A stretch of DNA of 34,246 bases from Deltaproteobacteria bacterium. GTDB taxonomy: Bacteria; Desulfobacterota; Desulfuromonadia; Geobacterales; DSM-12255. Positions 10,008-28,111 of the stretch are shown in pieces. Both the position numbers and the translations under genes were made by a program. The notes beneath the pieces were generated by a model that was not told where the DNA came from, did not search any database, and was given only the letters and a program-made list of their open reading frames with translations. The stretch is taken from NCBI GenBank assembly GCA_021849045.1, contig JAJZTK010000011.1:14742-48987 (forward strand), written 5' to 3'. Every line of letters starts with the position of its first letter. The stretch's first letter is position 1.

Positions 10008-11363
10008 TCACTCCCCCAGCCTGCCGGTTGTCCAGTCGAGGTTGGTACGGGCCGCCAGATAGTCCCGCCTGGCCCGCGCCAGATTGCTTTGGGCCTGGAG
10101 CAGGTTCAGCTGGGCGTCGTCCACCTCCAGCCGGATCTTTACCCCGTACTCGTACCCTTTTTCGGCCATCTGCAGCAGCCGCTCGGCCTGGCGCACCGTG
10201 CCGGCCAAAGCGGTGACAATCTCTCCGGCCTCCCGGACGTTATTGATCGCGTTGCGGACCTCCAGGGAAATTGCGTCCAGCAGTTTCTGTTCCTCGATCC
10301 GTTTCGTGGCCAGGTCGCTCCGGGCTTGTTGGACCCTGCCGTCGGTCTTGAAGCCGTCAAAAAACGGGAAGGAGAGATAGACGCCGATTTTCCAGGCAGC
10401 ACCATCGTTTCCGAGACTGGCGATATCCAGTTGGTGCCAGCCGACAGCCCCTTTCAGGTCGAGGCGCGGCTTGTTCTCGGCAGCGGCAATGGTCACCAGT
10501 TCTCCATAGATGCCGAGCCGATGACGGAGATCGATCAGTTCAGGGCGGCTGTCGCGGGCAATCTGCAGGACCTCTTCAAACGCCGGAGGGGGAGCAACCG
10601 CCATGTCGAGGCTGCCGGCGGCATCCACCGCTTCCCCCTCGATCCCCAGCAGGAAGCTCAACTGGTCGCGGTTGGTCTTGATCAGGTTTTCCGTCCTGAT
10701 CACCTCGGGCCGGGCGTTCTGTACCGAGACGTCGGCGGCCAGGACGTCGTAATCGGTCGCCACGCCAGCACTGAACTTCTTGTGTGCCTCGTCGCTGTGC
10801 CGCTTCTTCTGCTCCAGGTTTTCCACGGCAAAGCGATGGAGTTCCTTGGCCAGCAGGAGGTTATAGAAGGCAACGGCAACATCCCGCTCCGTCCCCTGGC
10901 GGGCCAGGCGAAGCTGTTCGCCGGCGGTCTTCAGCCCCACCTCGGCAGCGCGGATGGCGGCGCTTACTTTCCCCCAGGTGTAGAGCGGCTGGGAGAGGGA
11001 GAGATCGACGACTCGGCTGTACTGCTCTGCGGCCGTGCCGAAGAACAGCTGCTGGCTGTCATCCCTGGTAACGCTGGCGGAGCCGGTCAGGGTGAGCTGG
11101 GGCAGGGCCGCGGAGCGCTCCTCCACGTACCGTCCCTGTACCGACTGGCCATACTGGTGCGCCTTCCTGATATCCTTGTTGTTCTCCCGGGCGATCTGCA
11201 GCGCCTGGTCCAGGGTCAATACCTGTTGTTCAGCTGCCGCTGTCTGATGTGGCAACCCGATCAGAAGATAGATGCCCAGAAAGCTCAGGACGATTAAAGC
11301 CGCGCGGGAGGCTGGTTTCCCGGCGCCCCACCCCGTTGTGCCATTCCATTTCAATATGTGCAT
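10008..11363 (-). CDS. TolC-like outer membrane efflux channel (OEP family)
   Basis: Outer membrane and periplasmic-tunnel component of a tripartite exporter. From ATG 11363 (CAGGAG six bases upstream) the protein has 451 residues, a hydrophobic signal segment ending near TAAA, and then the family motif LTLDQALQIARENN. Two OEP repeats of long amphipathic helices follow, including QPLYTWGKVSAAIRAAE and FPFFDGFKTDGRVQQARSDL. The frame stays open to 11432, but that part runs into a palindromic repeat and is unlikely to be coding. It is the last gene of the adaptor-pump-PabBC-TolC operon and ends before the shared terminator. Confidence 0.9.
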   Translation of the reverse strand: MHILKWNGTTGWGAGKPASRAALIVLSFLGIYLLIGLPHQTAAAEQQVLTLDQALQIARENNKDIRKAHQYGQSVQGRYVEERSAALPQLTLTGSASVTRDDSQQLFFGTAAEQYSRVVDLSLSQPLYTWGKVSAAIRAAEVGLKTAGEQLRLARQGTERDVAVAFYNLLLAKELHRFAVENLEQKKRHSDEAHKKFSAGVATDYDVLAADVSVQNARPEVIRTENLIKTNRDQLSFLLGIEGEAVDAAGSLDMAVAPPPAFEEVLQIARDSRPELIDLRHRLGIYGELVTIAAAENKPRLDLKGAVGWHQLDIASLGNDGAAWKIGVYLSFPFFDGFKTDGRVQQARSDLATKRIEEQKLLDAISLEVRNAINNVREAGEIVTALAGTVRQAERLLQMAEKGYEYGVKIRLEVDDAQLNLLQAQSNLARARRDYLAARTNLDWTTGRLGE

Positions 11364-25192: not shown

Positions 25193-26599
25193 TTACTCCG
25201 CACAGCAGGAAAGCTTGCTGATATCCCGGCTGAATCCCTGGGCACAGAGCCTTAACCCCTCGCCGATGGAGGGGTAGACGTGCAGGGTGTTGGCCAGGTC
25301 TTCAACGGTTGCCCTGAGGCGGATTGCCAGGGCTGCCTCGTTGATCAGTTCGGCGCCCCGGTGACAGGCGAGGTGGACGCCGATGAGCCGTCCGCTGGCC
25401 CGGTCGGCCACCATGGTGATGATGCCGGCGGTGTGGCCGGTGACGTGGGCTTTGGGGATGGCGATGACCGGCAGGCTGTTGGTCACCGGGTCGATACCCG
25501 CCTGGCGGGCTGATTCCTCTGTGTGGCCGACGAGGCCGATTTCCGGGTCGGTGAAGATTGCCATGGGCACAGTCAGGTAATCCATGGTGCAGCCGCAGTC
25601 CGGGTTGAACATGTCGTCCACGGCAACGATCCCCTCCCTGGCCCCGGCCGAGGCGATCATCATGCCGCCGATGGCGTCTCCTGCTGCCCAGATGCCGGTG
25701 ACGCTGGTCCGCATGGTGCTGTCCACCGTGACAAAGCCGTGCCGGTCCAATGCAATGCCGATCTCTTCCAGGCCGATCCTGGCCGTGGCCGGTGCGGTTC
25801 CCACGGCAACCAGCAGGCGCTCGCCGGTGAATTCGTGCCGCCGGCCGTGCAGGTCGGCCGAGACCACGGTCTGGCCGCCCACGGAGGAGACCGAGCAGAA
25901 CGCCGCATCCGTCACGATACGTATCCCTTCGGCCACCAGAACCTCCTGCAGGGCCAGGGCCACCGCGGGAGAAATGGCCGGGAGAAGGCGGGGGCCATGC
26001 TCCAGGATCGTGACCTGAACCCCGAGGCGGTGGAACATCTGACCGAGTTCCACGGCAATGACCCCACCGCCGATGATCACCAGGGATTTGGGCAACTCTT
26101 TGAGCAGCAGCGCACTGCGGCTGGTCAGGAAGGCGCTGCCGGCAAGGCCGGGAATCTCGGGAATGCGCGGGTTTCCACCCGCCGCGATCAGGATGTGGTC
26201 GCAACTGAACTGCCGCTCTTCCACGGTAACGGTCCGCTGGTCGACAAACCGGGCGGTCCCCTTGACCAGTTCCAGGTCGGGAATCTGCTGCAGCACCTCC
26301 AGGTAGCGGGCTGTGCGCAGGTGTCCGACCACCTCGTCCTTGTGGGCTGACAGGGCCTGAAAGTCGACTGCGCCGGATCTTTTCGCGAGGCCGATCCTTG
26401 CCCCAAGGCCGGCTTCGTGGTTAAATAGTGCGGCATGGATCAGGGTCTTGCTCGGGATGCAGCCCCAGTTGATGCAGGTGCCGCCGAGCACGCTCTTTTC
26501 GATCATCACGATGCTGGCGCCGTGGGAGCTCGCGCGGAGAGCGGCGGCAAAGGCGGTCGAACCTGAGCCTATGATGATGACGTCCGGGGATGTGTTCAT
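25193..26599 (-). CDS. merA: MerA-like FAD-dependent disulfide oxidoreductase (mercuric reductase type)
   Basis: Cytosolic flavoprotein of 468 residues from ATG 26599 (AAGGAGG eight bases upstream). FAD motif VIIIGSGSTAFAAALRA, redox pair GGTCINWGCIPSK (C42, C47), NAD(P)H motif VIIGGGVIAVELG and second FAD motif GIWAAGDAIGG are in the standard order. The C-terminus ends in SCCAE, matching the vicinal cysteine pair of mercuric reductase (SCCAG in Tn501-type MerA), and HVYPSIGEGLRLCAQ corresponds to the MerA stretch with its conserved Tyr. The N-terminal heavy-metal domain is absent. No merT, merP or merR is nearby; the divergent gene is a Crp/Fnr regulator. Reduction of Hg(II) to Hg(0) is the best guess, with other metals or disulfides possible. 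Confidence 0.82.
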   Translation of the reverse strand: MNTSPDVIIIGSGSTAFAAALRASSHGASIVMIEKSVLGGTCINWGCIPSKTLIHAALFNHEAGLGARIGLAKRSGAVDFQALSAHKDEVVGHLRTARYLEVLQQIPDLELVKGTARFVDQRTVTVEERQFSCDHILIAAGGNPRIPEIPGLAGSAFLTSRSALLLKELPKSLVIIGGGVIAVELGQMFHRLGVQVTILEHGPRLLPAISPAVALALQEVLVAEGIRIVTDAAFCSVSSVGGQTVVSADLHGRRHEFTGERLLVAVGTAPATARIGLEEIGIALDRHGFVTVDSTMRTSVTGIWAAGDAIGGMMIASAGAREGIVAVDDMFNPDCGCTMDYLTVPMAIFTDPEIGLVGHTEESARQAGIDPVTNSLPVIAIPKAHVTGHTAGIITMVADRASGRLIGVHLACHRGAELINEAALAIRLRATVEDLANTLHVYPSIGEGLRLCAQGFSRDISKLSCCAE

Positions 26600-26726
26600 G
26601 CGAACCGCCTCCTTACCTGAAATCAAGTGTACCCGAAACCTGCTGCCCGGCAATGTCCGCAGCCGGTTGAGGCAAACCCTGCCGGCCCGTGGGCCGCTCT
26701 GCAGGCGAAGTACCCCGGTGAGCCCC

Positions 26727-27422
26727 ATGGAGATTCAGGAAATTCTCAAACAATCGCTGCTCTTTGCCGGCCTGGACGCCGAAAACCTGGCCGAGGTGGC
26801 TGCCATCGCCATCCGACGGACCTTTGTCAAGGGGGAAACCCTTTTCGGCGAAGGAGAGCCGGCCACCGGTTTCTACCTGCTGGCCAAAGGGGGAATGAAG
26901 CTCTGCAAGGTCTCCCCTGACGGTCGTGAAAAGGTGCTCCACTTAGTCCACCCCGGCGAGACCTTTGCCGAGGCGGCGTTTTTCGGCGACGGCCGGTATC
27001 CGGCCGAGGCGAGGGCCATCGAGAGCGGCGAAGCGCTCTGCTTTCCGAAAGACGCCTTCATGGGACTCCTGGAGCGTAATCCCCGGTTCTCCATGAACCT
27101 GATCGTTTCGTTGTCGCTTCTGCTGCGGCGTTTTGCCAGGCAGATCGAGGAACTCTCTTTTGCCGAAGTCCCCAACCGGCTCGCCGCCTATCTGGTGGAA
27201 CTGGCGGCCCGCAAGGCGACCACCTTTCAGGGCAAGACCTACCTGGACCTGGATATCAAAAAAGGTGAACTGGCGTCCCGGTTGGGGACGGTCAGCGAGA
27301 CCCTTTCCCGCACCTTCCGCAAGCTGAAGGAAGACGGCCTGCTGGAGGTGGACGGGAGTCGGGTCACGATCTTCGATATGTCCCGCCTCACTGAATTAGC
27401 CGGCCGCACAGGACCGGCCTGA
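26727..27422 (+). CDS. Crp/Fnr-family transcriptional regulator
   Basis: A 231-residue regulator with an N-terminal cyclic-nucleotide-binding-like beta barrel (about 10-130; GEGEPATGFYLLAKGGMKL and HPGETFAEAAFFGDGRYP) and a C-terminal winged helix with LASRLGTVSETLSRTFRKLKEDG as the recognition region. There are no N-terminal cysteines for an iron-sulfur cluster, so it is not an Fnr oxygen sensor of the classical kind; ligand unknown. ATG 26727 has GGTGAG four bases upstream. It is divergent from the MerA-like gene with 127 bases between starts, suggesting regulation of that gene or itself. The 250 bases after it hold a GCCGGG/CCCGGC hairpin (27453-27468) without a T-run and no gene. Confidence 0.88.
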   Translation: MEIQEILKQSLLFAGLDAENLAEVAAIAIRRTFVKGETLFGEGEPATGFYLLAKGGMKLCKVSPDGREKVLHLVHPGETFAEAAFFGDGRYPAEARAIESGEALCFPKDAFMGLLERNPRFSMNLIVSLSLLLRRFARQIEELSFAEVPNRLAAYLVELAARKATTFQGKTYLDLDIKKGELASRLGTVSETLSRTFRKLKEDGLLEVDGSRVTIFDMSRLTELAGRTGPA

Positions 27423-27673
27423 TCCGTGAGTTCTGAAGCCCTCTGCCGTTTTGCCGGGCTTCCCCGGCCCATGGATTCAGTCGCTGTTTTATTTTGGTAA
27501 TAATTTTCAAACGGAGAGAATTCCGCTTGATTACGGGCAAAACTTCCCGATAATTGAACATACGCAGTTCTCGTGGGTGAGCGAAGCAGGGCGTGGCGGA
27601 GCCGCTACGAATCCGGCGGTACGTTAAGACGGTACGGTGAGCTTGCGCAGGGATGGTTGTCGAGAGGTGGATC

Positions 27674-28111
27674 ATGAATGCCAGGGATGTTGACGAAGCC
27701 ATTGATCTGTACGTGAATGACCGGATGGAGAATGGGAAGGAACATGCCCGCGAGCGCTTTCTCGCTTTCACCTACCTTCGGCACAGCAGCAGCGAGGTGC
27801 GGGAGTTCCTGAAGAAGGTGGCCGGGTTGTCGCGCTATTACATCAACTTCCTGCGGGTAATGGAAAACCCGTTCAAAGGGCCTGAATTCGCCTGGTTTGC
27901 CTCCATGGTGACGGTGGCGATCTATGCCTGCATTCTGCTGACAGACGATGAAAACCGCCTGCTGGGGATCGGTCTCCTGTCGGGAACCATCGTCTATGCA
28001 GTCTCGCTGATCGTTGCCGTGGCCCGTAACTGGTGCAACGTGGGGGTCATGATCGCCATCTACCGGGAAATCGTCCAATTGGCCGAGAACGAGATGGAGA
28101 GTGCCGCCTGA
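27674..28111 (+). CDS. Hypothetical protein with two transmembrane segments
   Basis: A 145-residue protein from ATG 27674 (AGAGGTGG five bases upstream). Residues 1-65 are polar and helical, with an even charge mix. Two membrane segments follow, FAWFASMVTVAIYACILL and LLGIGLLSGTIVYAVSLIVAV, separated by a short DDENR loop, and a 30-residue C-terminal tail. Both termini probably face the cytosol. I do not recognise the family. It stands alone, with a bidirectional terminator 36 bases after the stop. Confidence 0.72.
   Translation: MNARDVDEAIDLYVNDRMENGKEHARERFLAFTYLRHSSSEVREFLKKVAGLSRYYINFLRVMENPFKGPEFAWFASMVTVAIYACILLTDDENRLLGIGLLSGTIVYAVSLIVAVARNWCNVGVMIAIYREIVQLAENEMESAA

Follow-up and report, generated by a model that had tools for sequence, protein, structure and literature searches.

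The 34,246-nucleotide stretch of contig JAJZTK010000011.1 analysed here (hereafter the window; assembly GCA_021849045.1, order Geobacterales) carries a reductase gene that is likely to encode a true mercuric reductase (MerA) of an operon-free, Geobacterales-specific lineage. The gene that adjoins it encodes a Crp/Fnr-family core regulator, and its position would reflect inherited gene order and would not be evidence of a Hg-specific switch. Regulatory novelty at this locus is unlikely, and the remaining interest lies in a deep, apparently vertically inherited MerA that stands outside a mer operon, in an order with many predicted mercury methylators.

Assignment of the reductase to MerA

The gene, merA, lies at positions 25193-26599 on the minus strand (ATG at 26599, stop codon at 25193-25195), is immediately preceded by an AAGGAGG ribosome-binding site, and encodes a protein of 468 amino acids. 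Against TIGR02053, the curated NCBIfam model of MerA, the protein scores 488.5 bits (cut-off 454.45), and it stays under the cut-offs of all other NCBIfam families shown, including dihydrolipoyl dehydrogenase. Among the matches listed, no other protein of the source genome exceeds the MerA cut-off. Its closest matches in the PDB are three mercuric reductases, 5x1y (38.0% identity), 1zk7 (37.4%) and 4ywo (36.0%), the last of which we take to be the MerA of Metallosphaera sedula. Pfam assigned the pyridine-nucleotide-disulphide oxidoreductase and dimerisation domains, plus weaker relatives of these, and no heavy-metal-associated (NmerA) domain, as expected from the original prediction, which had described the reductase as lacking one. 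By eye, no GMTCxxC-type motif was seen in the 43-amino-acid in-frame extension 5' of the start (ORF 25193-26728) either. NmerA occurs in many MerA but is not obligatory, and the plasmid-encoded MerA of two loci (L183 and L186) likewise measure 479-485 amino acids.

The accessible part of PMC8261052 lists as essential, in RC607 numbering, the residues C207/C212, Tyr264, Tyr605 and C628/C629, with position 605 occupied by Phe in archaea. Residue equivalences were taken from an alignment of the reductase with 5x1y, and the offset between 5x1y and RC607 was derived manually, with the CC pair as reference. All six signature residues are present: C42 and C47, the redox-active pair (C42-INWG-C47, codons at 26459-26476, minus strand, as are the following; C207/C212 of RC607), Y99 (26303-26305, equivalent to Tyr264), Y442 (25274-25276, equivalent to Tyr605), and the C-terminal vicinal cysteines C465-C466 (25202-25207, C628/C629). 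The C-X4-C pair and the terminal CC (in LSCCAE) are those that had been noticed at the outset. A Phe at the Tyr264 equivalent was considered and ruled out, the aligned residue being Y99. The full set recurs in 51/51 complete named loci of the Geobacterales MerA family, three more loci (L068, L069 and L073) being incomplete because they are cut or frame-broken. By sequence, residues and tree (see below), the product of 25193-26599 is thus classified as a MerA.

Phylogeny and a CC-less sister clade

The phylogeny comprised 52 rows, including the three PDB MerA, plasmid MerA, MerA of other members of the phylum and dihydrolipoamide-dehydrogenase-type rows. Relative to the first tree, this second one omits four distant or long-branched rows (L002, L003, L004 and L077), L003 possibly being already missing from the 52 rows through the length filter. 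MerA, with the Geobacterales lineage included, is separated from the dihydrolipoamide-dehydrogenase-type rows with a support of 99/99, so that the reductase falls inside the MerA clade, and the placement outside MerA that the original prediction had named as its refutation did not occur. The 18 rows of the Geobacterales family form a clade of their own (100/99), and the branching order among the main MerA lineages has no resolved support in this tree.

The closest relatives of the family are five rows (L070-L072, L171 and L172) that are ~44-47% identical to it, lack the C-terminal CC pair and join it with a support of 100/100. A single clade of all CC-bearing rows was rejected by the AU test (p-AU 0.0001), which was picked after the tree had been seen and left out L167 (frame broken by a stop), L076 and L078. 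Thus, the sister clade has probably lost its CC pair.

A further MerA was observed in G001, a close relative from the same genus. This second copy (L011/L100) is 36-37% identical, has Phe at the 605 position and groups with MerA rows of the Phe605 type, haloarchaeal ones among them; no such copy is present in the source genome.

Coenzyme and substrate of the reductase

In all 18 family rows (18/18), the window protein included, the second Rossmann strand ends in an acidic residue, whereas the MerA of Tn501, Bacillus and Metallosphaera have an Arg-containing motif at this place. An acidic residue at this position of the nucleotide-binding fold is associated with a preference for NADH, and its presence suggests the same preference for this reductase. 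The enzyme would be a cytosolic FAD dimer taking electrons from NAD(P)H, with NADH as the suggested donor; the electrons would keep the C42/C47 pair reduced, the C465/C466 pair of the partner subunit would receive Hg(II)-thiol complexes, and Hg(0) would be released. As it would work without MerR, MerT, MerP and an NmerA domain, its substrate would be Hg(II) taken into the cell by other routes. Hg(II) as the substrate, the cofactor, and a constitutive or non-Hg-specific expression of merA are what we infer from the sequence.

The original prediction had allowed for a different substrate, and it is conceivable, albeit unlikely, that the protein is a flavoprotein that only resembles MerA, with another metal ion or a disulfide as its substrate. 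The missing CC pair of the sister clade means that some enzymes of the wider clade may have another function, no transport genes or Hg sensor accompany merA, and the activity of Geobacter homologues is called unclear in the accessible part of PMC8261052. However, the six signature residues are conserved across the family, the curated MerA model is passed, and the reductase lies inside the MerA clade. The departure from the Arg of Tn501, Bacillus and Metallosphaera, which could also be read as a sign of another substrate, is shared by MerA rows elsewhere in the data set (L011, L160, L163 and L164 also carry the acidic residue). Since the signature residues and the tree both place the enzyme in MerA, Hg(II) reduction is retained as the predicted activity.

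The Crp/Fnr regulator and its neighbourhood

The regulator gene, crp (26727-27422, plus strand), encodes a protein of 231 amino acids with cNMP_binding and HTH_Crp_2 domains. It is divergent from merA across a 127-base intergenic region (26600-26726), the gap length given in the original prediction. The region holds the merA ribosome-binding site (AAGGAGG, minus strand), and no conserved operator was recognised in it. The regulator has two cysteines, C60 and C105, of which C60 alone is conserved (36/38 orthologues), so it has no [4Fe-4S] cysteine set, and its description as a Crp/Fnr protein without iron-sulfur cysteines holds. In line with this, the conserved cluster cysteines of Fnr are lacking, and the score against the Fnr model is 61.6 for a cut-off of 228. 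The recognition helix keeps E..SR in 38/38 orthologues, presumably of FNR type. A GSU0071-family protein (NCBIfam NF045710) is encoded directly downstream of the regulator, at 27668-28111 on the plus strand.

The original prediction had read the pair as a control logic distinct from that of classical mer operons. In a model of this kind, the Crp/Fnr protein would be the dedicated controller of merA in place of MerR, would respond to Hg(II) or to the redox state and would bind in the 127-base gap. By coordinate comparison, the two genes are indeed arranged divergently, with 95-403 bp between them, in 12 of the 85 genomes of the order with merA, across several genera (G000, G001, G019, G024, G026, G048, G052, G053, G058, G062, G063 and G064), and both the conserved C60 and the conserved FNR-type (ETLSR-like) helix would be compatible with such a role. 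Yet the lone cysteine makes no known Hg(II) or Fe-S site, and the regulator is far more widespread than the reductase: an orthologue, nearly always in single copy, was found in 130 of the 141 genomes of the order (102/103 of the good ones), against 85/141 for merA, and it is retained where merA is missing or distant. The co-occurrence and co-location expected of a dedicated Hg regulator are therefore not observed. In eight of the 85 merA genomes (G021, G023, G025, G046, G047, G049, G051 and G054), crp and merA are 2.0-2.7 kb apart, in one (G050) 9.8 kb, and in the remaining 64 crp is farther away, on another contig or not found. A transketolase gene (tkt), assigned by Pfam, precedes crp and separates it from merA in seven of the eight cases spaced by 2.0-2.7 kb, the exception being L137. 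Where crp is not beside merA, transketolase precedes it in 6/10 fetched neighbourhoods (L220-L223, L225 and L230), and the tkt-crp order, with the merA-linked cases counted in, spans three families of the order.

These arrangements would be explained most simply by a tkt-crp unit that came to lie divergently beside merA in some lineages, with tkt gone from between the two in the source genus, which argues against a dedicated mercury regulator. The regulator would then be a core regulator of the order, often within a transketolase-crp unit.

In 66 upstream regions of merA and 32 of crp, no site shared by the two genes was seen. FNR-like palindromes with up to three mismatches (<= 3) are no commoner upstream of merA than in shuffles (34/66 regions versus 31.9), whereas those upstream of crp exceed the shuffles (22/32 versus 12.3), at scattered positions. 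Given that the shuffles preserve base content only and that the upstream sequences are related by descent, the excess upstream of crp hints at autoregulation at most.

Dedicated control of merA by this Crp/Fnr protein is weakened by the distribution, the gene order and the lack of a shared site, and we regard it as quite improbable; local control through the divergent adjacency could nevertheless operate in the lineages in which the two genes are neighbours. What had been claimed as a novel regulatory logic is probably merely inherited gene order.

An exact-palindrome search upstream of merA returned Geomonas-type sites only: the sequence ACTGTATCCAAACAGT, a perfect palindrome of the form ACTGT-N6-ACAGT, is found in 9/66 regions (L051, L052, L057, L059-L062, L075 and L125), where it is conserved ~200 bp upstream of merA. 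It is possibly an operator of a neighbouring gene and has little bearing on control by crp.

Distribution and inheritance of merA

With presence defined as a match at E < 1e-100, the Geobacterales MerA family was found in 85/141 genomes of the order and in 65/103 of the good ones. Identity ranges over 59-100%, and five of the 85 matches are partial. Named relatives include Geobacter argillaceus (96%), Geobacter sp. OR-1, Oryzomonas japonica, Geomobilimonas luticola, Geotalea species, Geomonas species and Citrifermentans bremense. In the neighbourhoods of 57 named loci, no mer genes were found near merA among the seven gene clusters scanned with Pfam. The varied chromosomal contexts without mer genes suggest vertical inheritance.

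That merA is the leftover of a recently acquired mobile mer operon stripped of its other genes is highly improbable: solitary plasmid merA do exist (e.g., L182, albeit beside a heavy-metal-responsive regulator), but the 782 plasmid records matching the reductase are all < 60% identical (40.6% for the best among the matches listed), and the family is present across the order at 59-100% identity, forms its own clade and has ordinary genes as chromosomal neighbours. Judged from its sequence and surroundings, merA is a chromosomal, stand-alone gene that belongs to a separate, deep lineage, as opposed to a broken mobile operon.

A conserved protein of 118-120 amino acids without Pfam match (L029:7532-7894 and homologues) is encoded upstream of merA on the same strand, 25-181 bp from it, in 20 of the 107 family loci, a count in which named and handle loci overlap; five more hits are farther off or weak. 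It was not found in the window, and a search of viral contigs for it gave no match.

Other mercury genes in the source genome and the order

By inspection of the neighbouring genes, no mer-type regulator or transporter was recognised in the window, in keeping with the absence of MerR and transport genes that had been reported for this locus. An Hg(II)-responsive MerR and transport genes beside merA, as in a mer operon, are thus not seen here. MerT had no match in the whole source genome, with a match below the cut-off in one control genome alone, and MerB had none in the source genome nor in any control, so that the MerT result is a weak negative and the MerB result carries no information. The source genome encodes three MerR-family proteins, all without the Hg(II)-binding cysteine triad; two were checked by alignment to plasmid MerR and the third by reading its sequence.

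On another contig than that of merA (C261, around 10145-10462, locus L188), the source genome encodes HgcA with the sequence NVWCAAGK, which we take to be the HgcA cap-helix motif. An HgcB-like ferredoxin lies downstream of hgcA and a MarR-like regulator upstream. Given HgcA and the HgcB-like ferredoxin, the source organism is a predicted mercury methylator. A profile survey with the C-terminal part of PF03599, in which the cap motif was present in 30/30 loci fetched, gave HgcA-type matches in 95/141 genomes of the order. Like the source genome, 73 of the 85 merA genomes have both genes, 12 have merA only, 22 of the 141 genomes have hgcA only and 34 have neither. The raw co-occurrence is strong (Fisher p 1.2e-8, 141 genomes) but shrinks when stratified by genus (p 0.026 across all 141 genomes and p 0.28 across the 97 with a completeness of 95% or more), and thus no merA-hgcA link beyond shared ancestry is claimed.

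More tentatively, a stand-alone and vertically inherited MerA may serve as a house-keeping sink for Hg(II), with cytosolic Hg(II) split between it and HgcAB, and with merA expression that responds to central metabolism or to the redox state and not to Hg(II). If the enzyme is active, the lineage would account for some of the Hg(II) reduction seen in metal reducers that have no classical mer operon. The presence of reduction and methylation in one cell would then bear on the methylmercury output of these organisms. According to the accessible part of PMC9948709, Geobacter bemidjiensis is the one strain verified for both Hg methylation and methylmercury degradation.

Comparison with known systems

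In the literature covered by titles and abstracts, which includes few subscription papers, no description of the Geobacterales MerA lineage or of a Crp-merA pair was found. The accessible part of PMC8261052 states that Geobacter encode divergent MerA homologues with an unclear part in reducing Hg(II), and it describes no regulator or gene neighbourhood for them ('crp' has 0 occurrences in that part). They come from the same organism group as the lineage described here and, on that basis, probably include it, in which case the conserved lineage defined here would provide the concrete gene and protein behind the question.

The regulator shares with FtrB, Fnr and Crp the layout of cNMP_binding and HTH_Crp_2 domains and an ETLSR-type recognition helix. 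Unlike them, it has no Fe-S cysteine set and is transketolase-linked in several families, and it scores far below the curated cut-offs of all three models (102.5 against 211 for FtrB).

The archaeal MerA 4ywo, whose matched chain is the catalytic core only (462 amino acids), has a CC tail and 36.0% identity to the reductase; it carries Phe at the 605 position, where Tyr is found here, and lies on a separate branch. Metallosphaera sedula is among the confirmed MerA in the accessible part of PMC8261052. The Tn501 and Bacillus-type MerA (1zk7 and 5x1y) have the same domain layout, C-X4-C pair, both catalytic tyrosines and CC pair as the Geobacterales enzyme, which differs from them by its 37-38% identity, by having no NmerA domain and by standing with no merR, merT or merP nearby.
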